Positions 40,792 to 52,414 of a stretch of 64,000 bases of DNA are shown here, one piece after another. The notes beneath the pieces were generated by a model that saw nothing but the letters and a program-made list of their open reading frames with translations, was not told the DNA's origin and did no database searches. Source of the stretch: Halorussus litoreus (lineage in GTDB: Archaea; Halobacteriota; Halobacteria; Halobacteriales; Haladaptataceae); assembly GCF_003382685.1 (NCBI RefSeq), contig NZ_KZ859512.1:28141-92140 (forward strand). The letters run 5' to 3'. Positions within the stretch are counted from its first letter, which is position 1. Each line of letters starts with the position of its first letter. The translations under genes and the position numbers were made by a program.

Positions 40792-40814
40792 CAAGTGAAC
40801 AAAGTGAACGCCGT

Positions 40815-40885
40815 GCGCCGGTGGTCTAGTGGTAGGACATGAGCTTCCCAAGCTCATAGCCCGGGTTCAATTCCCGGCCGGCGCA
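40815..40885 (+). tRNA. tRNA-Gly (CCC)
   Basis: A 71-nt cloverleaf: acceptor GCGCCGG with CCGGCGC plus discriminator A, a D arm TCTAGTGGTAGGA, an anticodon stem TGAGC/GCTCA around TTCCCAA (anticodon CCC), and a T arm GCCCGGG-TTCAATT-CCCGGC. It is the integration target of the element on its 3' side and remains complete because the element restores the 3' half. Confidence 0.95.
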
Positions 40886-40886
40886 T
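40840..40886 (+). repeat. attL, 47-bp direct repeat in tRNA-Gly
   Basis: The 3' part of tRNA-Gly, from the anticodon stem to one base past the discriminator. It is repeated exactly at 51530-51576. This is the signature of tyrosine-recombinase integration in a tRNA gene. Confidence 0.93.
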
Positions 40887-41043
40887 ACCGGCTTCACACC
40901 TGTTCTTGACGGTGATTTCAACGGTTCGCAAAGCCACATACGAGTGTGGCACTCAAACGGCCACCTTGCCAATGCCATCGATCATGGTAATGCACCGCAT
41001 ACCATACGAAATGCGCGGCTCAGACACAGGACACTGTAGACAC

Positions 41044-42153
41044 ATGCCTGCAAAATACCGAAACGTACCGTTGTCAACTGAACAGACTGAAGCTCAACTG
41101 ACCCCCCGGCAACTCAAATCGTACCATGACCATCGGAAACGGCTGATCGACTGGCTGCTCACGCGGGGGAAAGACCCGGACCGCGGTCACGGCTATGCCG
41201 AGGCCACCGCCCAAATACGGGCGTACCGCCTTGACAAGTTCTACCGCGCCGTCTGGGATGCCGAAGACCGATACACCGAATACGTCACCACGTCCCACGC
41301 CGATGCGTGGCTGCTCCACCTCGACGACCGGGACCTCTCCAACTCGTACAAGGCGAGCTGCATGAAAGCACTCCAATCCCTGTTCGAGTGGAAAGCCGAC
41401 ACCACAAACACGGACTGGAACTGGGAGCCAGTCAAACACTTCAGTTCCGACCCTGCACACCAGCCCCGGGATTTCCTGACCCGGGAGGAACGGGACCAGC
41501 TCCGGGAAGCCGCGTTAACCTATAACGCACTTCCAAACTACTACGAGGCTGACGATGACGAACGGGACAAACATTTGCGGGACTTGGCCATGCGGTTCGG
41601 GAAACCCCAAGCGGAGATCGGTGTCGAGGAATGGCAGCAAGTAAGCAACTGGAAGGTGCCGTCACTCATCTGGACGACATTGGACGCGGGCCTGCGACCG
41701 GTCGAAATCGGGAAGGCACGTGTTTCGTGGGTGGACACCGAAAACGGCGTGTTACGGATTCCGAAGGAGGATTCGGCGAAGAACACGGAGAACTGGCACA
41801 CCCCGATCCGTGACCGGACAGTGATGGCACTCGAACAATGGCTGACCAACCGGAACCGACTGGACAAGTACAACGGGACGGATGCGTTGTGGCTGACCCG
41901 ATACGGTAATCCGTACGATAGCAATGCGTTGAATGGGTTGCTTCGCCGGGTGTTGGAGGAAACGGAGATTGCGACGGAGGACCGGGATTTGACGTGGTAT
42001 TCGATCCGGCACAGTGTGGGGACGTATATGACCCGGGAGGAGGATTTGACGGCGGCAGCCTCCCAGCTCCGGCATAAATCAACGCGGACCACCGTCAAGT
42101 ACGATCAGACGCCCGTGGAGGACCGCCGTGATGCGTTAGACAAGATGGGGTGA
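41044..42153 (+). CDS. Tyrosine recombinase (integrase)
   Basis: A 369-aa integrase that should recombine the tRNA-Gly att sites. The N-terminal SAM-like/core-binding region (about 20-130) is followed by the catalytic domain with Arg218 (DAGLRPVEIGKA), Arg322 (WYSIRHSVGTYM, where the usual His of the HxxR box is Tyr319), His344 (SQLRHKSTRTT) and nucleophile Tyr353 (TTVKYDQTP). The ATG at 41044 (MPAKYRN) is chosen. In-frame upstream starts exist to 40906, next to attL. The gene is not split by integration, unlike SSV-type integrases. Confidence 0.92.
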   Translation: MPAKYRNVPLSTEQTEAQLTPRQLKSYHDHRKRLIDWLLTRGKDPDRGHGYAEATAQIRAYRLDKFYRAVWDAEDRYTEYVTTSHADAWLLHLDDRDLSNSYKASCMKALQSLFEWKADTTNTDWNWEPVKHFSSDPAHQPRDFLTREERDQLREAALTYNALPNYYEADDDERDKHLRDLAMRFGKPQAEIGVEEWQQVSNWKVPSLIWTTLDAGLRPVEIGKARVSWVDTENGVLRIPKEDSAKNTENWHTPIRDRTVMALEQWLTNRNRLDKYNGTDALWLTRYGNPYDSNALNGLLRRVLEETEIATEDRDLTWYSIRHSVGTYMTREEDLTAAASQLRHKSTRTTVKYDQTPVEDRRDALDKMG

Positions 42154-42192
42154 AGCGAACGACATATGCAGGTGCGCGCCATATGTTCCCGT

Positions 42193-42354
42193 ATGGCGCA
42201 AACGGATAGCCAGCAGTCGGTCTCGCACTGCAAGGCGTGTGGGTTCGAGGCTGCAACAGGCGGCGAGGATTGGGACCGGGTTGATTCACCGTCCTTTATG
42301 CGGATGACGAGCTGTCCGGAGTGCGACAGTACGAATGTGACGCTCCGCCGGTGA
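42193..42354 (+). CDS. Small zinc-ribbon protein
   Basis: A 53-aa protein with two CxxC knuckles (CKACGFEA and CPECDSTNV) spaced about 25 residues apart, a typical zinc ribbon of haloarchaeal mobile elements. The ATG at 42193 is preferred over 42166. It lies downstream of the integrase, in the same direction. Confidence 0.75.
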   Translation: MAQTDSQQSVSHCKACGFEAATGGEDWDRVDSPSFMRMTSCPECDSTNVTLRR

Positions 42355-42361
42355 CTGGCAA

Positions 42362-42688
42362 ATGGCGCACTACATCGTCCGGGCAACCCCAAAGATGGAG
42401 AAGTTGGCCGAGCTCCGTGAGCGACTCGACCGTGAAGAGTTCAGAGATATGAATCCGTTCGGCCGGGCGTTGACGCAGTCATTGGAAAACGCCCGATTTG
42501 ATCCGGAGACTGAAGAGGCGGTCTGGGAAGAAGAGGACTACTGCAGTCCGCCGTTAGCGATGGAACGCGACGCTGTCCTTGAGGAATACTTCGAAAAGCT
42601 ATTGGTCGAAGAGGTGCGTTCAGGGAAGGGCTGGGAGCGCATTGACGACCTACCCTCGTTGTGGGAATCATCGTTGGCCTTAGGATAG
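42362..42688 (+). CDS. Uncharacterised element protein
   Basis: A 108-aa acidic protein (MAHYIVRATPKMEKLAELRERLDREEFRDM...) of mixed alpha/beta prediction, with no recognised domain. It starts 7 bp after the zinc-ribbon gene, so it is probably in the same transcript. Names used for similar short proteins in haloarchaeal proviruses give no function. Confidence 0.75.
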   Translation: MAHYIVRATPKMEKLAELRERLDREEFRDMNPFGRALTQSLENARFDPETEEAVWEEEDYCSPPLAMERDAVLEEYFEKLLVEEVRSGKGWERIDDLPSLWESSLALG

Positions 42689-42749
42689 TAGGCCGTCTGT
42701 CTGATCAGATGGCGGCACTTATTTAAGCGTTCTTACATAGTTCGTACCT

Positions 42750-42881
42750 ATGGCGACGGAACAGTGGGCCGAAACACGCGACGCCAAACAATGCGGCAAC
42801 TCCGCCCACATCCTCCTCCCCAAACGCTTCCGCGGCAAAACATTCCGCATCGAATTAGCTGAGGACGATAGCGGTGGATGA
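42750..42881 (+). CDS. DUF2080-like/AbrB-like micro-protein
   Basis: A 43-aa protein (MATEQWAETRDAKQCGNSAH...). The segment CGNSAHILLPKRFRGKTFRIEL matches the short DUF2080 'transposon-encoded' family, a SpoVT/AbrB-like DNA-binding strand-turn pattern. Its stop overlaps the GTG of the next gene by 8 bp. An AT-rich promoter region (TTATTTAAGCG, ACATAG) lies at 42719-42740. Confidence 0.75.
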   Translation: MATEQWAETRDAKQCGNSAHILLPKRFRGKTFRIELAEDDSGG

Positions 42882-43092
42882 CGATACGATTGTTGCATTA
42901 AAGCGAATGAATAGGGAGCGAGGAATTGTTCTTAAGCGACTGTACAAGTCTCTTAATCGGGTGGAGGAGCAGATTCGGAACGGTCAGTCCAGGTCTGAGA
43001 TGCTTGCACAGGAAGTGGATCACTTACTCATTGAAATTGAGACAAACGGCGTACTTGACGCAAATAGTGCGGAGGAGATGGTCGGTGAGTGA
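42874..43092 (+). CDS. Helical micro-protein
   Basis: A 72-aa, GTG-started, mostly helical, probably coiled-coil protein (IVALKRMNRERGIVLKRLYKSLNRVEEQIRNGQ). No family is recognised. It overlaps the genes on both sides (8 bp each), showing coupled translation in a polycistron. Confidence 0.7.
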   Translation: MDDDTIVALKRMNRERGIVLKRLYKSLNRVEEQIRNGQSRSEMLAQEVDHLLIEIETNGVLDANSAEEMVGE

Positions 43093-43348
43093 GACGCAGG
43101 TACGATCGCCATGGACGCAGCAGACGTATGAGAAGTTCGTGGGCGAGTACGGGATACCGGAGCGGTGGCTAATGATCGCTGGCGCGGGGAACATGGCTCA
43201 AATTGTCACCGCGGGACCGGTGGGCGATGCCGTCCGGCAGACGCTCGACGAACTGAGCTACGATTGGGAGATACAGAAGACACCGCCTAGAAAGCTCGGT
43301 ATACCTGCACTCGTATTCCAAATTAGCAAGGGTGGTGACCACGGGTGA
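43085..43348 (+). CDS. Uncharacterised micro-operon protein
   Basis: An 87-aa protein read from the GTG at 43085 (VSETQVRSPWTQQTYEKFVGEYGIPERW). No domain is recognised; the centre (VGDAVRQTLDELSYDWEIQKTPPRKLGIPALVFQISKG) looks alpha/beta. It overlaps the previous gene by 8 bp and is followed 4 bp later by a zinc-binding micro-gene. Confidence 0.65.
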   Translation: MSETQVRSPWTQQTYEKFVGEYGIPERWLMIAGAGNMAQIVTAGPVGDAVRQTLDELSYDWEIQKTPPRKLGIPALVFQISKGGDHG

Positions 43349-43352
43349 AGAC

Positions 43353-43448
43353 ATGTGGCCGAGTACGGTAAAGTACGAGAATCCGAAACCCTGTCCGGAC
43401 TGCGACCAGCAGGATTGTACATGTGACAACGGTGATCACAATGGCTGA
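43353..43448 (+). CDS. Cys-rich micro-protein
   Basis: A 31-aa ORF, MWPSTVKYENPKPCPDCDQQ then DCTCDNGDHNG. It has two Cys pairs (CPDC and CTC) that could hold zinc. Its stop overlaps the ATG of the next gene (TGGCTGA in an ATGGCTGA context). Confidence 0.6.
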   Translation: MWPSTVKYENPKPCPDCDQQDCTCDNGDHNG

Positions 43449-43581
43449 AATACCGATTCTAGCTGTCACCATTGCAGTGACCGTAGCCTTCTGGATCGGG
43501 CTGGAACTCGGGCGGACGCAAGAATACGTGGACGGCTTCAGAGCAGGACTGGCAATTACTGAGGATGAGCACGATGGCTGA
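43441..43581 (+). CDS. Single-TM micro-protein
   Basis: A 46-aa protein with one membrane helix (ILAVTIAVTVAFWIGLELG, residues 6-24) and an acidic tail (GLAITEDEHDG). It is embedded in the overlapping train, sharing 8 bp with the gene before and 17 bp with the one after. Confidence 0.6.
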   Translation: MAEIPILAVTIAVTVAFWIGLELGRTQEYVDGFRAGLAITEDEHDG

Positions 43582-43762
43582 GATGCATATCGACGACATC
43601 GAACTGGAGGTTATCGAGATTGAGTGGACGTGTAAGTGCGGCCACTCCAACGCAAACGGTCTCAGCGGCGGCTTCACGGAGAAAGTAGCTTGCCAAGAGT
43701 GTCGAACCGAGTACGAGCTAATACCGGAGAACGACACGCACATTGAGGTGCATCCGTGGTGA
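43565..43762 (+). CDS. Zinc-ribbon micro-protein
   Basis: A 65-aa protein with CKCGHSN (Cys23 and Cys25) and CQEC (Cys43 and Cys46), a small zinc-ribbon pattern, and acidic ends. An internal ATG at 43574 is an alternative start. Its TGA overlaps the GTG of the next gene. Confidence 0.7.
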   Translation: MSTMAEMHIDDIELEVIEIEWTCKCGHSNANGLSGGFTEKVACQECRTEYELIPENDTHIEVHPW

Positions 43763-43965
43763 GTGGCAACCAACAGGATGGGAGGAAAGTCCGCGCACGC
43801 CGGAACCTGGAGCGCAACTTGCAGGCTTTGATCACCGAGCATTTGGAGGAGGTTCGACGGTACGCCGAGCGCTCTACCTACACGTACAAACAGGTGCTTG
43901 AACGGTATCTCCAAACGTTGGACGACCGCACACAGCACCATTTAGCACCGGGTGACTTGAAGTGA
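43759..43965 (+). CDS. Helical micro-protein
   Basis: A 68-aa basic helical protein (RKVRARRNLERNLQALITEHLEEVRRYAERSTYTYKQVLERYLQTL) from the GTG at 43759. Basic residues in the first helix suggest nucleic-acid contact, but there is no recognised family. Confidence 0.65.
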   Translation: MSGNQQDGRKVRARRNLERNLQALITEHLEEVRRYAERSTYTYKQVLERYLQTLDDRTQHHLAPGDLK

Positions 43966-44078
43966 CCTCCGAGACAGCTGCTATCTTCGGGTTTGCTGGG
44001 GGAACGGTGTTCGGAGTCTGGCTGGCCGAGTACAGTCCATTCCAACCGATTCGGCTTGATGAGGCAGATCAAAAGTGA
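43962..44078 (+). CDS. Single-TM micro-protein
   Basis: A 38-aa protein from GTG (VTSETAAIFGFAGGTVFGVW...), with one hydrophobic segment (residues 5-20). Overlap with its neighbours is 4 bp on each side. Confidence 0.55.
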   Translation: MTSETAAIFGFAGGTVFGVWLAEYSPFQPIRLDEADQK

Positions 44079-44200
44079 GCTGGATTTGTCCCCAGTGTGA
44101 CGACCAGCCGCTCGCTGTGCAGCAGCCGAACACGGGCGAGCCCACTACGTACTACTGCACAAACTGTGACGCAGAATATTACGGAGAAGTAGAATTATAG
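44075..44200 (+). CDS. Zinc-ribbon micro-protein
   Basis: A 41-aa protein from GTG: WICPQCDDQ and YYCTNCDAEY give two CxxC knuckles, a complete minimal zinc ribbon. It is the last gene of the micro-train. The AT-rich gap to 44324 (AATCTAGCC repeats, GCTAGCCTAGCAGC, TTTATGTAGATGT) is a promoter candidate for the methyltransferase. Confidence 0.65.
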   Translation: MSWICPQCDDQPLAVQQPNTGEPTTYYCTNCDAEYYGEVEL

Positions 44201-44324
44201 CGCAGCTATATGCCCGTGTAAATCTAGCCGGACAGCCGCTAGCATACAGAATGAGGCTAGCCTAGCAGCTTTATGTAGATGTATTGATAGATATTTTCCG
44301 GGCCACCGGGTACGCTGAGATGCA

Positions 44325-45437
44325 ATGCCCGGAACAGACGCGGAGGGGGTTGCAATCAGTGCCGATTATCACAACAAAGGACACCCAGAACAAGAGCCGA
44401 TCCGGTTCATCGACCTGTTTGGTGGGATTGGCGGGTTCCGTCTTGGCCTCGAACAGGCGGATGACCGGTACGAGTGCGTCGGCTACTATGATCAGGACCG
44501 GTTTGCGGTAGACAGTTATAACGCCATATTCGGTGAAACCCATGAACCAACAGACGTTACACAACTGGACGCTGAACAGATTCCGGGCCACGACCTCCTG
44601 TGCGCAGGGTTTCCGTGTCAAGCTTTCAGCCTTGCTGGAGAACGAGGTGGATTCGACGACACGCGAGGAACTCTGTTCTTTGAAGTCGCTCGGATTGCTC
44701 GACGAAAGCTACCTCAGGTACTGCTCCTTGAAAACGTCAAAGGACTACTTAATCACGCCGACGGGGCAACGTTCCGAACGATCCTCTCGACGCTGGATGA
44801 ATTGGGGTATGATGCGGAATGGCAGGTGCTTAACAGCAAATATCACGGAGTACCGCAAAACCGAGAGCGTGTCTTCATTGTCGCATATCTTAGAGATGGA
44901 CCCCGACCCCAAGTATTCCCTATCCGAGGACCGGCAGGAGAGGATATTCCAAGAGATGGAGGAACGCCGATTATAGATAACAATGGTCGGCGAAGGGACT
45001 ACTTCAAGACTATCTCCTCGGGCGGGAATAGCGCGATGGATGACTCGGATGCGGACTTCATCCTCCAGCAACCACGAGGAGATAACGATGGACGGGTTCG
45101 GAAGACCGCCCCAACTGTTACCTCGGGCGGAAGATACGAACAGAATAACTTTGTCACAGGACTCGTTCAATCCCGCGGGTTCGAGACGAGACAAGATGAT
45201 GTCAGTCATGCAGTGAAGGGTGACGGTGGAAGCTCGGTGGTCCATGCGACCGATGGTGTTTGCATCCGGAAACTGACACCGCGGGAGTGCTGGCGGCTTC
45301 AAGGATTTCCAGACTGGGCATTCGAGGCAGCACAAGAGGTCAACAGTGATACGCAGTTGTACCAGCAGGCGGGGAATGCCGTGACCGTGAACGTAATTGA
45401 GGTTCTGGGGGTGCGATTACTTACTGCGTTCAAGTAA
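44325..45437 (+). CDS. dcm: DNA (cytosine-5) methyltransferase
   Basis: A 370-aa C5-cytosine methyltransferase using S-adenosylmethionine. All hallmark motifs are in order: I FGGIGGF (32-38), IV with nucleophile Cys98 in AGFPCQAFS, VI ENVKG (136-140), VIII QNRERVF (178-184), IX RKLTPRECWRLQGFP and X YQQAGNAVTVNV. The target-recognition region between VIII and IX is about 120 residues, enough for a single specificity, which cannot be read from sequence. It is convergent with the two-gene unit at 45446-47628 with only 8 bp between stops, so a restriction-modification or protection role is plausible. Confidence 0.95.
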   Translation: MPGTDAEGVAISADYHNKGHPEQEPIRFIDLFGGIGGFRLGLEQADDRYECVGYYDQDRFAVDSYNAIFGETHEPTDVTQLDAEQIPGHDLLCAGFPCQAFSLAGERGGFDDTRGTLFFEVARIARRKLPQVLLLENVKGLLNHADGATFRTILSTLDELGYDAEWQVLNSKYHGVPQNRERVFIVAYLRDGPRPQVFPIRGPAGEDIPRDGGTPIIDNNGRRRDYFKTISSGGNSAMDDSDADFILQQPRGDNDGRVRKTAPTVTSGGRYEQNNFVTGLVQSRGFETRQDDVSHAVKGDGGSSVVHATDGVCIRKLTPRECWRLQGFPDWAFEAAQEVNSDTQLYQQAGNAVTVNVIEVLGVRLLTAFK

Positions 45438-45445
45438 GAGTCTGA

Positions 45446-46531
45446 TTAGGAGAACTCTTCGAGCGAGGATTGACCAGTTGGTGCGGAATCCCGGCTGTAC
45501 CTGCAGTATCGTTTGATGAGTTTGAGAGCAAGTTCAGTGGCTCGACGATACTCGCGCGCGAGTCTGTTGTTTCCAGTCATGTCGATGTCTTGAACAACTC
45601 CTGTATACATCACGTTGTATGACTGGCTTGATTCCTCTGCGTACCGAGTCGTGCAAAGGAATTCCAGTGTCTCCTCGATCCACTCCTCCTTCACGTCCCC
45701 GTCGTTGATTCGCTGAGTGTTCAGCTTGTTAGTCAGCTGGCTACAGTCCACCGTAATCTGCTGCTTCTTGTTGATTTGTCCTTTTCTCCACTCGGTGAAG
45801 TCTTCCTCTGAGAGTTCCGTTGGGAATTCCTTCATCCAAAGGTAGGTGGCTAGGTAGGAATGCGGTGGCTTCGTATTGTAGATGGGTTTCGTGCTCTTCG
45901 GTCGGAGGAACTCTTTTGTCCCTAGTTTATACGACTTATAACCGCCGTCGGGACCAATGGTTTCGTTTAACGATTCCTCGTCGGGCAGATGCTTTTCCCG
46001 GAATTCGTCCTCTAGCGAGGTCTCCCGCTGGAATATGTAATTTGCCCGTTGGTCATCCATGCCGTACCGAATCAACACGACATTGTTCTCTAATCCCGGT
46101 TCGTCGTTACTGAGTCTCGTATTCAGAATATTTCCGAACTCAGATGAGTAGCTGTCGGGGACGAAGGCCACGAAGTCCGTCATTGCCGTGTCAACGAATG
46201 CACCATCATCGTCAACGACATCGTAGCTATCGTCACACTCTGCTAGCATATTCAGTAGCTGTTCTGCGATTGTTGCTGGTTCATTCTCCAATGCTTTCGG
46301 CAGGATTTTCCCGATTATACTGTAGTTGCTGTCGAAGTGAACCGTGAAGTCGGGTGTGTATTCAATATCGTCTGCGGTGTCTTGGGGAAAACGGTCAAAG
46401 TAGTATTTGTCGAAGTGACGGTCAAACACGCCAAATACCGTTTCCCAGCCACTGATGACGTCGACACTATCATTGTATGTTCTAAAGTTGTGATGCTGCC
46501 AATCTACACAACCAACATCTTCCCCGCTCAT
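45446..46531 (-). CDS. Unrecognised protein with degenerate nuclease-like motif
   Basis: A 361-aa protein beginning MSGEDVGCVDWQ. No named family is recognised. Residues about 57-80 read EYTPDFTVHFDSNYSIIGKI, the spacing of a PD-(D/E)XK nuclease core (PD, then a strand with the usual E-x-K); here the second motif is G-K-I, so an active site is uncertain. The rest is mostly helical, ending in RATELALKLIKRYCRYSRDS. It starts 2 bp after the stop of the gene at 46534, so the two are translated together. It faces dcm, so one model is the restriction half of a restriction-modification system. Confidence 0.7.
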   Translation of the reverse strand: MSGEDVGCVDWQHHNFRTYNDSVDVISGWETVFGVFDRHFDKYYFDRFPQDTADDIEYTPDFTVHFDSNYSIIGKILPKALENEPATIAEQLLNMLAECDDSYDVVDDDGAFVDTAMTDFVAFVPDSYSSEFGNILNTRLSNDEPGLENNVVLIRYGMDDQRANYIFQRETSLEDEFREKHLPDEESLNETIGPDGGYKSYKLGTKEFLRPKSTKPIYNTKPPHSYLATYLWMKEFPTELSEEDFTEWRKGQINKKQQITVDCSQLTNKLNTQRINDGDVKEEWIEETLEFLCTTRYAEESSQSYNVMYTGVVQDIDMTGNNRLAREYRRATELALKLIKRYCRYSRDSAPTGQSSLEEFS

Positions 46532-46533
46532 GT

Positions 46534-47628
46534 TTAGGCAACGAAGTCGGTAAGGCTGTACTCCGGTTCTGCACGCAGGTTCAGTACACCTTCCTGGAAT
46601 TCCTTAGACATTTGATTCGCAATCCTCATCAGTGAGTTAACGGAGCCTTTGTATCCGGGGACGATAGAAACCGAGTCCGATCCTGTCACGTATATATCGC
46701 AGTTTGAACCGTCGACAAAGTCCACGAGAGAGACGTGTGCGTAGGGATTGTCGTGGTAGACCGTCATCGTGCTTTTTTCTAAGTTGCTGAGTGCTTCGAT
46801 GAGCTCTTGATTGTCGGAGGGTGAGTTCAGCACGTTTGATTGAAACTCAAGTTCTATTTCACTGATTTCACCAGACTCGCTGCGATCACTATGGGAGAGA
46901 ATATCCAATTTGTCTGTGACCGTGTTCACGAAAGACCCGAGCAAATATTCACGGTAGAGGTCAGGATCTCCGCTCTCTAATTTAGTCACCCCTTCACGAC
47001 TGATGAAGCCACTAAAGAACTCGTTGTCTTGCCGGCGGACGGTGAAGTTGAGTTTATCAACGTAGCCATTTTCGAGCTGTTCATCTCGGAAAACCTCTTT
47101 ATATGGCCGTGTTCGGAAAGAAATTGTCCCCTCCTCCTTTCGGGAGTAAACAACTGCTTTGCTGACTAGAATCTCTGCAGAGAGTTCCTCTTCGATGCTA
47201 CGGAGTACTTGCTTCAGCTCCTCGGAATCGGCGAAGAAGTCAGAGATATGCGGCTCAGCACGGTCAAAAAGCCACGTTAGTCCGTTGTCAAAGAAGTCAG
47301 GATCGTATCCTGTTACGGCAGTCCAGATCGGGGAGTCCCCATGTTGGAAAAAGGCGAATGAACCCTCAACCTCACGGTCGCTTCGTTCAATGGTTCGCTC
47401 AACCCGAACGCTATAGAAGTCTGTTTCCTCTTTGATTTTGACCGCTCCGGACTCATGGTAGTCCAGGGCTGCTCTCAGGATCGGGATGGGGTCCTCATGG
47501 GAGATTACTGTTTTGTACCTTGCTTTGTTGCGTGGTTTGCGGTTTACCTCCGCATCGATTAATTCCTCTAAAGAACCCCGGTCAATCTCGCCATAGTCTA
47601 ACGCAGATCCATCAACAAACCCGTGCAT
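46534..47628 (-). CDS. Unrecognised protein paired with the nuclease-like gene
   Basis: A 364-aa acidic protein of unknown family (MHGFVDGSALDYGEIDRGSLEELID...). It has alternating strands and helices, for example SAEILVSKAVVYSRKEEGTISFRTRPYK and HVSLVDFVDGSNCDIYVTGSDSVSIVPG, and no membrane segment. Residues near 185-200 (KLNFTVRRQDNEFFSGFISREG) give no catalytic hint. It is tightly coupled to the downstream gene (2 bp), a strong sign of a two-component unit. Its codon use and GC are lower than in the chromosomal flanks. Confidence 0.7.
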   Translation of the reverse strand: MHGFVDGSALDYGEIDRGSLEELIDAEVNRKPRNKARYKTVISHEDPIPILRAALDYHESGAVKIKEETDFYSVRVERTIERSDREVEGSFAFFQHGDSPIWTAVTGYDPDFFDNGLTWLFDRAEPHISDFFADSEELKQVLRSIEEELSAEILVSKAVVYSRKEEGTISFRTRPYKEVFRDEQLENGYVDKLNFTVRRQDNEFFSGFISREGVTKLESGDPDLYREYLLGSFVNTVTDKLDILSHSDRSESGEISEIELEFQSNVLNSPSDNQELIEALSNLEKSTMTVYHDNPYAHVSLVDFVDGSNCDIYVTGSDSVSIVPGYKGSVNSLMRIANQMSKEFQEGVLNLRAEPEYSLTDFVA

Positions 47629-47730
47629 GACAGTTCGGCAGTCTGTTACCGTGTCAAGGACCGGAGGCAGAGTAGAAAAGTATTACGAACCAGAAATTTA
47701 GAAATTGAGTCAGTTTTATCTGGATTTCGT

Positions 47731-49050
47731 TTACTTCTGAGCATATCCATGGAAAAAACCTAGGGCGGCAATAAGGATGAGGAGAAGGAGAAGGGACTTC
47801 ACGGAAAGGGTTACTGATGTAGCCTCATAGAACTCCTGTGGAACATTATTTAAAAAGAACTCGACGATAGCGATTACTGCAAGAAGAATCGTTAGATTCC
47901 GTACCGAGTTCTGGAGCTGAAGATTCGACTTTGTAGCCCTTGACTGGATTTGATCCTGTACTACTGCTGTGAACATCTCAAGCTTGTTGCCCACTCGTTC
48001 CAGAGTATCGGAAAGTGTATTCAGTTTCTCCGTTGTTCGCCGTATGTTCCTTGCCAAGTATGTCTCATGATATCCGCCCAATGAATCGTCGAACACCGTG
48101 CTTCCTTGATTCTCCTGATAGTTCTCAAGGATATCATCCATCTCCTGATATTCGTCTGCCGTAGAAGAATGCGTTTCCACCCAGTCTCTCCGTAATTCTT
48201 CTAGCTCTTCTTCGGTTTCGCTTACTTCCTCAACAGAGTCTCCCAACTCCAGAGACCCCATACTATAATTATATGACTCAGAATCAATATTTTGGATCTC
48301 GTTTTTTCGCCAAGTTAACCAATGATTCACAAGAAAAATGTTCGTCACGGCCTTCAGTTTTCGGTATTCAAATCCAAACCACTGCTCCCAATACTCTTCA
48401 TCAGCCGATAATGGGTTACCTTGATAATTGATATTAAGTACAGGAAGAGGGCTGGAGAGCAGTTCCTTCTCTGTGATGAGATAGGAGGAGTCAAGAAGAC
48501 TCACCTCCGATAACGGATTAAAGCCCCACCCATCAAGTTTGCTTGCATTATCCTTTAGAAACTCTGTGACTTGCTTAGAGGAATTGGTAGAAAACCCCTT
48601 CAACTCGTCCTGAGTTGGATTTACAAGGAGTAGTAAGGGTTTCGGCGCTGAGTCCTGAATAAGGCTAGCGGAGAAGTGATTACTTATCCCCTCAATTTTC
48701 TCACGCCATTCTGCTCGGCAACTACGGTTTGCAGTTATATCCCCGGGAGTAATTCTCTTGGTTTCCGATTCAGTGAGCGTGGCTACCGTAATCTGATGGA
48801 AGAAATATTGACTCTCTGTATCCTGAACAAGGTATGAGTGGAGTGAATCGAACTCATCGAAGGCAATAGGATCTCGTGGTCTACTGAAATGAATTGCTTC
48901 AACCTCAAGTTCACTATTCCCAAAATCTACTGTTTGGTCGGGAAGTTCTGCTTTCTGATTAAATAAGCTGCTTAGGACATTTGTGACCTCGTTATGTGAG
49001 ACCCGTTGATAGAAATCGTATCTCACTATTTGAGCCGATTGAATGTCCAT
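47731..49050 (-). CDS. Protein with C-terminal two-TM anchor
   Basis: A 439-aa protein from the ATG at 49050 (a TTG at 49065 is possible). The N-terminal about 260 residues are a soluble alpha/beta region (DIQSAQIVRYDFYQRVSHNE, WEQWFGFEYRKLKAVTNIFLVNHWLTWR). Next comes a long helical stretch (about 270-375) with heptad-like spacing. Two closing hydrophobic helices (TILLAVIAIVEFFL and SLLLLLILIAALGFFHGY) are separated by a short loop. The order is soluble sensor, coiled coil, then two-TM hairpin, like CorA-type and two-TM effector proteins of defence systems. The function is an inference. It lies about 100 bp upstream of the paired genes. Confidence 0.7.
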   Translation of the reverse strand: MDIQSAQIVRYDFYQRVSHNEVTNVLSSLFNQKAELPDQTVDFGNSELEVEAIHFSRPRDPIAFDEFDSLHSYLVQDTESQYFFHQITVATLTESETKRITPGDITANRSCRAEWREKIEGISNHFSASLIQDSAPKPLLLLVNPTQDELKGFSTNSSKQVTEFLKDNASKLDGWGFNPLSEVSLLDSSYLITEKELLSSPLPVLNINYQGNPLSADEEYWEQWFGFEYRKLKAVTNIFLVNHWLTWRKNEIQNIDSESYNYSMGSLELGDSVEEVSETEEELEELRRDWVETHSSTADEYQEMDDILENYQENQGSTVFDDSLGGYHETYLARNIRRTTEKLNTLSDTLERVGNKLEMFTAVVQDQIQSRATKSNLQLQNSVRNLTILLAVIAIVEFFLNNVPQEFYEATSVTLSVKSLLLLLILIAALGFFHGYAQK

Positions 49051-49210
49051 CAAGGTGATATGCAAAGACGGAACTTATGTTTCTATCGTTAGACACGCAC
49101 GCCGTAATTACACATCGTATTACTGGGGGCCAGTCTACCGGCGAACTCCTCTGAGGTAGAATTTACGGTGTGTTCCGCCTCACACTCTTTTCGGCGAATA
49201 TTGTCGATGG

Positions 49211-49414
49211 TCAGAGTTTGTTTGCTTCTTTCAATTCGGCGATCTGCCGGGCCATGTCCTCTGTCGCCCGCGCTGCAGAGTTCCCTGTCCCTACTATATC
49301 GAGTCCGGTCTGTGTCGCTTCCCACGTCCCGTCCTGGCGCTTGGCGAGTTCGACCAGCGTGGTGCCGTAGGCCATCGTGCGTTGTACTGCCTGTTTGTCA
49401 TCGCTTTTCGACAT
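49211..49414 (-). CDS. Small acidic/basic mixed protein
   Basis: A 67-aa protein from the ATG at 49414 (MSKSDDKQAVQR). The middle (TMAYGTTLVELAKRQDGTWEATQTGLDIVGTG) resembles small haloarchaeal proteins of viral elements that I cannot name, and it ends in a helix RATEDMARQIAELKEANKL. A longer reading frame to 49585 is less likely. It could be a regulator of the block. Confidence 0.55.
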   Translation of the reverse strand: MSKSDDKQAVQRTMAYGTTLVELAKRQDGTWEATQTGLDIVGTGNSAARATEDMARQIAELKEANKL

Positions 49415-49604
49415 ATCCCAGTGGTGGTACTGCCGTCTACTTAGTGGCTGTCCGTCCACGTTGAAAGTGAAATTATTATCTCCACGTGGAAATTGATACG
49501 CCACCGTTCTTGCGCGAAGAGACCGATTGAAGTACAGGGAATTCCTGCTGCTTTCCCGGTAGGAAGAAGTCCAGGAGTTCAGCATTAGGTTTGCTGATGC
49601 GAAG

Positions 49605-50780
49605 TCATTCTTCGCCAGTTACGATTCTCCTACGTAAGTAGGGTGCGAGGAACGAGGCCATGGCAGCAAACACCGGGTTCCCTGTTAGATGTAGCGTGAT
49701 AGAAAAGAGCATAAATCTAAGTACCATAATCTGATAGTCCTGGGATAACGACGTGAACCACGTCCTGGCCTGTCCTGTGTTCAATATCGATTCGGCAACC
49801 AGCGCCGGAATCTCAAACACCAGTTCCGTTGAAAACGCGTCCTGATCCGGTAATGTAGCATCAACCGTTGTACCCGTTGCTCCATTGATCGAAGTGGTCG
49901 AGGAGTTGGAGGCCTCTGTTGGGGTTATCTCTGCCGTCGTTGGTGAGGCTTCTGCAACCGTCGAAGCCTGTGGAGAAGGCGAGGTTCCAGTAGCAGTCCC
50001 AGCATTGGCTGGGTGGAGTGAAGCAAGATCCGCTATTACAGGTGCGGGAAACTGTATCTCTGGCAGTGACTGGATTAATGACTCTGTAGTATGTTCCAGA
50101 ATCGCTTGGTGCTGACGATTGATGTGTGCCAGGGTCGGCGATAGGGCTGACTGGAGTACGTCAACTTGTTGATTCAACACCGGCTGCGTTACCGTCTGAA
50201 CGAGACTAGCCTGGGATTGAATCATCGGTTCGAGTAGGCTGTCCATCCCGCTGGCCGCCATGTATGTTTTTGTCGGAGGGGTAATGCTCTCCTCTATCGT
50301 CTCTCGAACTGTGTCAATGTCAAGTGGAAATGAAGGGGCCGTACGCTCAACCGGGTCTCCTACTGATTCATCTTCTACTTCATAATCCAAATAGACCGTT
50401 CCAACATACTCACGCAAAATCTGTTCAACTGGTTCATCCAGTTCAATGGTTTCGGCAGCTTCCTCCACGTCTTTCCCCACTGTGAAGAAAGCCTGACCAA
50501 GACTGGCTACTTTCGTGGACACCGTCGTTGGCGGCTCTTCAAATATCAGGCGGTAGACCGTCAGCGCTTCTCGAACATCCTCTTCTGAGTGTTCTACTTC
50601 CTCAGAAACGGATTCGATGTCCTCAAGGTCACGATAGAGTTCCCCCGCCTGCCGAATGGTTTCACACCATTCAAAAGAAACTTGTTCCCGCCGTTTTTCC
50701 CGACGATCCTCCATCTCTTCCATGAATTTCTCGAAGTCGAACTCTTTCGATTTTTCATCGGAGCGTTCCTGATCGTCCAT
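49605..50780 (-). CDS. Helical protein with HTH-like N-terminus and hydrophobic C-terminus
   Basis: A 391-aa protein. Residues 1-140 are acidic and helical with two HTH-like stretches (DIESVSEEVEHSEEDVREALTVYRLI, and GKDVEEAAETIELDEPVEQILREY). Helices with Gln/Ser runs follow (about 170-240), then a Thr/Ser/Ala-rich disordered linker (about 245-310). The end has a hydrophobic pair (about 350-385, YQIMVLRFMLFSITLHLTG and FAAMASFLAPYLRRR), maybe a membrane-inserting part. No family name is given. It is the 5' gene of the minus-strand block. Confidence 0.65.
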   Translation of the reverse strand: MDDQERSDEKSKEFDFEKFMEEMEDRREKRREQVSFEWCETIRQAGELYRDLEDIESVSEEVEHSEEDVREALTVYRLIFEEPPTTVSTKVASLGQAFFTVGKDVEEAAETIELDEPVEQILREYVGTVYLDYEVEDESVGDPVERTAPSFPLDIDTVRETIEESITPPTKTYMAASGMDSLLEPMIQSQASLVQTVTQPVLNQQVDVLQSALSPTLAHINRQHQAILEHTTESLIQSLPEIQFPAPVIADLASLHPANAGTATGTSPSPQASTVAEASPTTAEITPTEASNSSTTSINGATGTTVDATLPDQDAFSTELVFEIPALVAESILNTGQARTWFTSLSQDYQIMVLRFMLFSITLHLTGNPVFAAMASFLAPYLRRRIVTGEE

Positions 50781-50851
50781 TTATCTGTCGTTCGTAGTGC
50801 ATCACTAAAGAATCCCGATTAACCAGATGCCTTTCCTCAGATGACGACATC

Positions 50852-50974
50852 GTGACGACCTACGTGCCGACCGACAAACTTGCTGATGCACGGGCATTAG
50901 AACACGTCGAGGTCAAGGTTGTCGAGGAATACGAGCACGAGTACCTGATCTCCGTGACGGCACCGAGTACGTAG
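50852..50974 (+). CDS. Short ORF of unknown function
   Basis: A 40-aa GTG-started frame (VTTYVPTDKLADARALEH...), acidic and of protein-like composition with repeated VEVKVVEEYEHEY. It may be a real micro-gene or the tail of a lost gene. It is divergent from the 49605-50780 gene across 71 bp. Confidence 0.35.
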   Translation: MTTYVPTDKLADARALEHVEVKVVEEYEHEYLISVTAPST

Positions 50975-51529
50975 GGATACTCCCTTGGTGCAGGAGACTA
51001 GTAGCTACCTTGAACTTTATCCGAACGGGTGTCTATCGATACAAAAAATGTGATGATCTAGGTGAGAGAAACTGTTCCACTGTCTCTTGCCCGTGTAACT
51101 TGTACAAAGTAGTGTTGCTCCCCCGAATTGGTTAAAGCAAACGGGCTTAACGACGCAGGGGTGCCCCGGGATGTGAGCCCTCCGGTAATGGCTCAACGAC
51201 GTGGGGTAGCCACCACAACCTTTGGACATTGAGCGAACGGCTCAAATCGGGTGGTAGGAAGCTTTACCCCGCGTTCTGGGGTGTGTGCCACGCTGAGCGA
51301 ACACTGATCGCACGCTGGATTACCTCTGATTTATGAAAGCCGTAGCATGATGGTAGAATGGCTCATGTCCCAGCGGTTTTATCCGGGATGCCGGTGTAGC
51401 TGGCGCTACAAGCAGGGTGGATCAAGAACACAAATCGTCGTTGAGAACGGTGTGAGGCCGCCGGATTCACCGGTTTCGAAGAGAGGTGTTGGCGAACGGT
51501 GATGTGCGGGACCCCACGTGTTAGTAGGC
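50975..51529. other. Gene-free right end of the element
   Basis: Lower-GC DNA with no credible ORF. A short hairpin ACCCC-GCGTTCTG-GGGT sits at 51266-51282, and several TGAGCGAAC-type short repeats occur around 51230 and 51293. This could hold recombination arm sites or a small RNA; neither can be shown here. Confidence 0.4.
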
Positions 51530-51576
51530 TGAGCTTCCCAAGCTCATAGCCCGGGTTCAATTCCCGGCCGGCGCAT
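51530..51576 (+). repeat. attR, 47-bp copy of tRNA-Gly 3' part
   Basis: Identical to 40840-40886. It lacks the 5' half of the tRNA, so it is not a functional tRNA gene, and marks the right junction of the element with the chromosome. Confidence 0.93.
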
Positions 51577-51588
51577 CTCTACCTTCGA

Positions 51589-52314
51589 TTAGAGGATGTC
51601 GGGCAGCCCGTCGGTCTTGTTCGTTGCAGCGTGGAGCTCGGAGACGCCTTCGAAGGTCAAGAACTCGACGCGGTCGCTGATGGGGTCGAAGCCGCTCTGG
51701 CCGATCCGTTTCTCGAACTGGCTCTTTCGGGATTCGTCCGCGACGATGACGAAGTTCGCGTAGTAGTCCCGGAGGTCCAGAAACTTGTGCAGCGAGTTCT
51801 GGAAGTCCGTGGAGAACTCGACTTCGAAGAGGCTGTCGGGCATTTGGCGCTCGTTGAACCAGAGAACGTCGACCGTGCGGGCACGCCGCAGTAGTTCCTC
51901 ATACCCGAACTCGTGGATACTCTCTAGACTCCGAACGTCGCCCAACGTTCTGTCCAGAAATTCCCTGTTCTTGTCCTGGGAGGGAACCCACGTTTGAGCT
52001 CGCCGGACGTTTCCAACCTCCGCCAGCAACCCCTGAAAGTACCAGTGGTTGTACCGGTCCTGTTCCAGTTCCGAGGCGGATTCCGCGTAGACGTGCTCCG
52101 GTAACTCTTCGCGGTGATCTTCCAGCGCCCAGAGCCCCGGTCGAAGCTTGAAAAATCGGTCGTGATTCTGAACGATCCGGCGGATGCTGGCGTTCGGCGT
52201 CTTGGTCTTCCACTCGCTTCCGTCGACCTCCGGAGCGCGCTGATACAGTCGCTTCAGCGTCGCGTAGCCGTCGTTTTCCTGCATCACCTGTTCGACAGCC
52301 TCGTACTGGTACAT
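51589..52314 (-). CDS. HARE-HTH-like plus nuclease-like protein
   Basis: A 241-aa protein from the ATG at 52314 (MYQYEAVEQV). Residues 1-70 (EAVEQVMQENDGYATLKRLYQ... NASIRRIVQNHDRFFKLRPGLWALED) look like a HARE-HTH winged-helix domain. The second half (VDVLWFNERQMPDSLFEVEFSTDFQNSLHKFLDLRDYYANFVIVADES) has a D...E-x-E strand pattern as in PD-(D/E)XK-fold proteins. HARE-HTH domains are associated with chromatin and modified-DNA recognition, so a DNA modification-linked nuclease or reader is possible. It lies 13 bp outside attR and is transcribed toward it. Confidence 0.6.
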   Translation of the reverse strand: MYQYEAVEQVMQENDGYATLKRLYQRAPEVDGSEWKTKTPNASIRRIVQNHDRFFKLRPGLWALEDHREELPEHVYAESASELEQDRYNHWYFQGLLAEVGNVRRAQTWVPSQDKNREFLDRTLGDVRSLESIHEFGYEELLRRARTVDVLWFNERQMPDSLFEVEFSTDFQNSLHKFLDLRDYYANFVIVADESRKSQFEKRIGQSGFDPISDRVEFLTFEGVSELHAATNKTDGLPDIL

Positions 52315-52414
52315 TGTACTGCTCACCGAAGCCGAGAGATAAAGATCCTTGCCACCGACATCACACTGCCGGTTAGAAATCGACGACAACGTAGAAACAC
52401 TCGCGCCTCGGCAG

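Follow-up and report, generated by a model that had tools for sequence, protein, structure and literature searches.

The locus considered here raises the question of whether two adjoining genes of the haloarchaeon Halorussus litoreus, which face a DNA methyltransferase gene, belong to a restriction system or to a unit of some other kind. The genes, which we will refer to as A and B, lie in a stretch of 64,000 nucleotides from contig NZ_KZ859512.1 (hereafter the window, whose first letter is position 1 for all coordinates). An earlier reading based upon the letters alone (the sequence-only reading) had proposed that the methyltransferase and the gene pair form an undescribed restriction or defence module, which could be a new restriction type with a separate recognition protein. 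The results described below indicate a different composition: A and B are a conserved pair, their companion in the window is a membrane protein gene, M, and the methyltransferase stands outside the conserved unit. Our preferred interpretation, which we hold tentatively and at slightly less than an even chance, is that the three genes M, A, and B (49065 to 45446 on the minus strand) together form a mobile unit for abortive infection, which would work like lambda RexAB with an extra subunit. The features upon which the argument depends are as follows.

47731-49065, minus strand: gene M, up to 444 aa, a soluble N-terminal part followed by two C-terminal membrane helices, putative effector (homologues, hydropathy)
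47752-47907, minus strand: pair of transmembrane segments predicted in M, residues 387-438 (hydropathy scan)
46534-47628, minus strand: gene A, 364 aa, putative sensor, predicted to be a DNA-binding protein of RdgC/CENP-L/N-like type (AlphaFold2, Foldseek)
46696-46755, minus strand: invariant motif in the C-terminal part of A (residues 292-311), H-x-N-P-Y-x-H-x(4)-D-x-x-D-G-x(3)-D
45446-46531, minus strand: gene B, 361 aa, predicted PD-(D/E)XK-fold protein with a degraded active site and a C-terminal clamp motif (AlphaFold2, alignment)
46301-46351, minus strand: altered PD-(D/E)XK motif of B, residues D61-L77
45452-45472, minus strand: putative PCNA-interacting protein (PIP) motif QSSLEEF, residues 354-360 of B (C-terminal pattern)
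44325-45437, plus strand: C5-cytosine DNA methyltransferase, 370 aa (PF00145, E 6.5e-82)

Distribution of the A-B gene pair

Both A and B are full-length open reading frames (ORFs), separated by a gap of 2 bp. Separate searches with A and with B identified the same 14 of 391 haloarchaeal genomes, in all of which the two genes are adjacent and in the same order, and family-level searches with a profile of A added five further genomes, with B next to A in each of them. Cultured archaeal carriers include Haloarcula marismortui ATCC 43049, in which the pair is on plasmid pNG100, and Haloferax marinum. The pair is also found on two Arthrobacter plasmids; these bacterial members come from plasmid records, the scan of genome contigs having returned haloarchaea only. 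The set of loci analysed here hence comprises 19 from archaea (the window included) and two from bacteria, and the A family contains 21 sequences. The co-occurrence of A and B is far above chance.

In annotated records A and B are labelled hypothetical proteins, and neither they nor M have a family match in Pfam, NCBIfam, PADLOC, or PHROGs, or a match by sequence in the PDB; a literature lookup under the accession numbers also returned nothing. The description of A and B in the sequence-only reading as a tight and undescribed pair is thus confirmed by the gap, the shared 14 genomes, and the lack of family names. Relatives of the pair were not found in viral contigs or phage records, and a viral origin of the unit was rejected on this ground.

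Membrane protein genes and groups of loci

The loci fall into groups according to the gene that accompanies the pair. In group 1, consisting of five loci including the window, the gene directly upstream of A encodes a product of about 450 aa that has transmembrane helices at its C-terminus. In group 2, consisting of 10 loci, the gene downstream of B encodes a smaller product, 210-240 aa long, which has several membrane helices. All 15 loci of these two groups thus have a membrane protein gene immediately beside A-B and oriented the same way, and none adjoins the pair in the four remaining archaeal loci (group 3) or in the two bacterial loci. For the window's group, a conserved A-B unit with a membrane partner is near certain. 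The window gene M, which lies upstream of A in the same direction and whose likely start is the ATG at 49050, is a conserved companion that the sequence-only reading had overlooked.

A hydropathy scan detected one or two hydrophobic segments per member in the window's group and two to five in group 2, and a common origin of the two kinds of membrane proteins was not seen by profile comparison (probability 1%). The group 2 proteins resemble the PycTM component of Pycsar, as five of the nine tested match the PADLOC model for it (best E 1.3e-6). The A-B loci differ from Pycsar in that no pyrimidine cyclase (PycC) is present at the locus, neither A nor B matching any cyclase family, and the window M also gave no match to the PycTM model.

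Predicted fold and active site of B

The AlphaFold2 model of B, which was built from an alignment of 11 rows (predicted local distance difference test, pLDDT, 73.9; predicted template modelling score, pTM, 0.77), shows the order alpha-beta-beta-beta-alpha-beta, with D61 at the start of strand 2 and residues 75-77 at the end of strand 3. The sensible Foldseek matches for this model are mostly PD-(D/E)XK proteins (SfsA, PaqCI, NucC, SduA, and McrC), and they also include winged-helix regulators, a resemblance that is weak. In four archaeal relatives (our loci L032, L070, L071, and L072, the last from Natronomonas gomsonensis), the aligned region contains an intact motif, TPDF...YG(L/I)IGE(I/V)KRT, and E30 is invariant. 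Based upon the element order, the position of the motif and its intact form in group 3, a PD-(D/E)XK superfamily core in B is moderately supported. The sequence-only reading had recognised in TPDF...IIGKI of the window protein an altered core of this kind and had suggested structure prediction of B as a check upon it; the prediction and the four relatives both agree with that proposal. In the window B, D61 is retained, E75 is replaced by K and K77 by L, and the full catalytic set of D, D/E, and K is therefore not present. On this account an active PD-(D/E)XK nuclease in the window copy is not supported, although the lysine that is now found at position 75 leaves a small doubt about inactivity.

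NucS/EndoMS proteins also combine a PD-(D/E)XK fold with a C-terminal clamp motif. However, B has no match to the NucS family in Pfam scans, its nuclease-type domain is N-terminal and is followed by another domain, it always occurs with A, and its distribution is patchy. Similarly, B shows a weak fold similarity to the stand-alone defence nucleases of this superfamily (Shedu SduA and NucC), from which it differs by the degraded active site of the window copy, its clamp motif, and its partner A.

Loss of the active site and presence of a membrane gene

The catalytic D-E-x-K residues of B are intact in exactly the four archaeal loci that do not have a membrane gene, and they are degraded in 15 of the 15 that have one. 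In group 3, D61, E75, and K77 are all kept (TPDF...GE(I/V)KRT). Group 1 proteins have D, K, and L at these three positions, and in group 2 D61 has been lost in nine of the 10 proteins and K77 in all of them. There is thus an apparent swap from a nuclease to a membrane effector. In phylogenetic trees each of the three groups has its own branch, and groups 1 and 3 are sisters (90/95). This arrangement would mean that the active site was lost twice, and two losses are also favoured by the difference between groups 1 and 2 in the residues lost and by the lack of a relation between their membrane partners.

To assess selection on B, nonsynonymous (pN) and synonymous (pS) proportions of difference were used, as dN/dS was mostly uncomputable with synonymous sites being saturated. 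The values were pN 0.21 vs. pS 0.80 for the window and L029, and pN 0.09 vs. pS 0.80 for L031 and L073. The group 1 protein is hence still under strong purifying selection after the loss of its motif, which indicates that B has a use other than cutting. The fastest changing of the genes is M, with a pN of 0.40 compared to 0.16 for A.

Putative clamp motif in the C-terminal end of B

The archaeal B proteins end in sequences such as QSSLEEFS, QTSLVQFE, QSSLEEYF, QSGLGDFA, QPTIGEF, and QPELGEF, which conform to the PIP pattern. This pattern is present at the very C-terminus of 12 of the 19 archaeal B proteins, whereas a single one of the roughly 347 other ORFs at these loci has it (Fisher p 6e-17, a value that overstates independence because the copies of B are related). 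The Arthrobacter proteins end instead in IPAQLSLF and NPEQPSLF, of which the terminal QLSLF and QPSLF represent the bacterial beta-clamp pattern. A motif that switches with the clamp type of the host is hard to explain other than by clamp binding. Judged by motif only, the C-terminus of B fits that of a sliding-clamp client, with PIP in archaea and QL(S/D)LF in bacteria.

Predicted fold of A and likeness to the Rex systems

The model of A (AlphaFold2; pLDDT 78.5, pTM 0.79) has E. coli RdgC as its best PDB match by Foldseek (2owl; E 4.6e-5, probability 1.00), followed by Iml3-Chl4 and CENP-L/N, and in a viral structure library phage RdgC proteins were among the best matches (probability 1.00). 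The fold of A is thus predicted, with moderate support, to be that of RdgC and CENP-L/CENP-N (Iml3/Chl4), which is also the fold of lambda RexA, and a protein of this kind points to a DNA-binding sensor coupled to an effector, and away from site-specific restriction. A differs from RdgC itself in being encoded in an operon with B and in lacking a match to the RdgC family (PF04381), which was not detected in any member of the A family or anywhere in the genome from which the window is derived. The C-terminal motif of A is invariant in 21 of 21 sequences, including those from Arthrobacter; it resembles a metal or ligand site and matches no recognised motif. Some A proteins also have a PIP-like C-terminus (QTMADFF in L071), which is weaker evidence than the motif of B.

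RexA of phage lambda is a structural relative of RdgC that resembles Iml3/Chl4, and it works together with RexB, a membrane protein that has four helices (PMC11077077). Rex-like gene pairs of actinophages, such as Sbash gp30/gp31, defend against phages, with membrane depolarisation being the proposed mechanism (PMC6426596), and the same has been proposed for the Rex-like phage defence of P. putida (RexAB, PP_5643-5644; PMC12894663). The M-A-B unit shares with these systems (lambda RexAB, Sbash gp30/31, CarolAnn gp44/43, and P. putida PP_5643-5644) a soluble protein of RdgC fold, predicted in the case of A, that is encoded beside a membrane protein; carriage by mobile elements and a proposed combination of sensor and membrane effector are likewise common to both. 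It differs from them in having an additional and equally conserved subunit of PD-(D/E)XK fold with a clamp motif, in the lack of sequence relation between A and RexA, in the structure of M (which in the window combines two membrane helices with a large soluble part, compared to the four helices of RexB), and in its loci, which are cellular or plasmid-borne and for which no match was obtained in viral contigs or among phage records. Hence, the fold predicted for A and the membrane partner would make M-A-B Rex-like, and the third subunit and the lack of sequence relation lead us not to class it as a member of Rex.

The integrated element and the methyltransferase

M, A, B, the methyltransferase, and an integrase are all located within an element of 10.7 kb (window positions 40840-51576) that is integrated in this segment of a haloarchaeal chromosome, the limits of which are marked by the following features.

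40840-40886, plus strand: attL, the 3' part of tRNA-Gly(CCC) (the tRNA being at 40814-40886), a perfect 47-bp repeat
40906-42153, plus strand: tyrosine integrase of the element (PF00589, E 1.1e-16)
51530-51576, plus strand: attR, a second and perfect 47-bp copy of the 3' end of tRNA-Gly

The G+C content is 48-61% within about 40-52 kb of the window compared to 64-72% outside it, and in a sister species of the same genus (L081) tRNA-Gly immediately adjoins the gene that in the window is found past attR, i.e., the site is empty. The tRNA-Gly repeats, the integrase, the dip in G+C content and the empty site together place the A-B locus within an integrated element. Two further ORFs of the element on the minus strand (49211-49585 and 49605-50780) have no family match, and none were seen near A-B elsewhere. 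Just beyond attR, a HARE-HTH protein (51589-52389, minus strand) weakly matches a model for type II restriction enzymes, and its gene is also kept beside the tRNA in the sister species.

The methyltransferase is intact and converges upon B, with the stop codons 8 bp apart, and in these respects the sequence-only reading was correct. These facts, together with the location of all three genes within one element, are what favour a new restriction-modification type in which the methyltransferase (Dcm) would be joined by B as the nuclease and A as the recognition protein. However, no C5 methyltransferase is present beside A-B in the first 13 relatives, and among five loci that were added later it is found near the pair in only one (L070, at a distance of 1.4 kb). 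The methyltransferase is cargo of the same element and lies outside the conserved unit. Further, the window B does not have the active-site E and K, and the third gene that is linked to the pair encodes a membrane protein. Type II restriction-modification calls for a methyltransferase linked to the endonuclease across homologues and for an endonuclease with intact catalytic residues; such linkage was not found for the A-B loci, and the window B reads D61, K75, and L77. The Dcm restriction module was therefore rejected, and we regard a restriction type with a separate recognition protein as very improbable. What stands of the original proposal is an undescribed defence-type module containing a PD-(D/E)XK-fold protein, which is supported by the homologues, the fold predictions, and the mobile context.

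Proposed function and alternative explanations

The conserved A-B pair, its membrane partner, the decay of the active site, the clamp motifs, and the mobile element are results of computation, and the folds are predictions with moderate support. The holding of DNA, clamp binding, triggering, and killing that make up the mechanism proposed here are what we infer from these features. A, by its likeness to RdgC and RexA, may bind or encircle DNA, and B may dock on the sliding clamp by its C-terminal PIP motif, which would serve to distinguish replicating viral or plasmid DNA. Upon meeting foreign replication forks, the A-B pair would switch on an effector. In group 3, which would represent the ancestral type, this effector would be the nuclease of B itself; in groups 1 and 2 this role would have passed to a membrane protein, and the nuclease site would have decayed. 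In the window's group, in which the catalytic residues of B have been lost, the effector would be M, which may depolarise or damage the membrane. A broader form of this proposal is that the loci represent an immune system, previously undescribed and common to both domains, that monitors the replisome, in which RdgC-fold and PD-(D/E)XK proteins on the host clamp sense foreign replication, and the dead nuclease was left as a clamp-bound adaptor after the nuclease effector had been replaced by membrane effectors at least once and probably twice independently; we consider this broader form possible but rather unlikely.

A number of observations weigh against the abortive-infection interpretation. 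For A, the TM-scores against RdgC are only about 0.3, because of which its whole-chain arrangement is uncertain; RexA was not among the 50 matches listed for it by Foldseek, and no sequence relation was detected between the A profile and lambda RexA or between A and E. coli RdgC (hhalign probability 0.2% in each case). The Foldseek matches of B are weak (best E 0.02), its PIP motif is weak or absent in seven of the 19 archaeal proteins, and M has no family match. Additionally, the active-site K is replaced by alanine in the Arthrobacter B proteins, which retain D and E, though no membrane gene is present there. Lastly, a single clade of groups 1 and 2 is not rejected (approximately unbiased test, p 0.126); with the tree undecided between one and two losses, the association of membrane genes with degraded active sites rests on few events.

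The main rival explanation is that A-B, with or without M, serves in genome or plasmid maintenance, as a clamp-associated recombination or fork-repair factor of mobile elements rather than in defence, with A acting like RdgC and B in the manner of NucS/EndoMS or another structure-specific nuclease. E. coli RdgC has indeed been tied to recombination and fork restart (PMC11077077), NucS/EndoMS is a clamp-stimulated endonuclease known from the same two clades, viz. Archaea and actinobacteria (PMC8228993), and many copies of A-B are plasmid-borne. However, the patchy spread of the pair (14 of 391 genomes), its two unrelated membrane partners and the degraded active sites are better suited to an effector system; M evolves fastest, as is often the case for effectors, and B has no NucS family match. 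We consider this explanation unlikely. The compact operon of membrane and soluble proteins on an integrative element could also be viewed as a toxin-antitoxin-like or superinfection-exclusion unit, in which a toxin M is held by A-B and freed when replication of the element is disturbed, and RexB and PycTM provide precedents for membrane effectors. However, the group 3 and bacterial loci contain A-B without a membrane gene, which indicates that A-B have a role of their own, and typical antitoxins are neither as large nor as highly conserved as these two proteins; an explanation of this kind appears improbable to us.

Genes neighbouring A-B in other genomes

Among the products of genes neighbouring A-B pairs (L029:3414-7391, L071:7430-8242, and L037:4939-7935) are an Eco57I-type restriction-modification protein, a protein weakly matching the N-terminal domain of AbiJ, and an NTPase of the nSTAND type that contains TPR repeats. 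On the plasmid of Halosegnis marinus (L071:10500-12000), regularly spaced repeats that translate as ASTPLRCVCN / LQPHYGASVT adjoin the pair and are probably a CRISPR array. In Natronomonas aquatica (L032:6975-8654), a gene divergent from A-B encodes a protein that matches DUF4143/DUF234 and contains a further PD-(D/E)XK-like stretch (VECK).

Significance

If the abortive-infection interpretation is correct, it would extend Rex-like exclusion to archaea and to plasmids, and the added subunit would link sensing to the sliding clamp. The loci would also constitute a natural series, ranging from an active nuclease to a dead nuclease with two kinds of membrane protein, in which a change of effector could be tested stepwise in tractable haloarchaea. 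Further, A would provide an archaeal member for the RdgC/CENP-L/N fold, which would bear on the origin of the kinetochore proteins.

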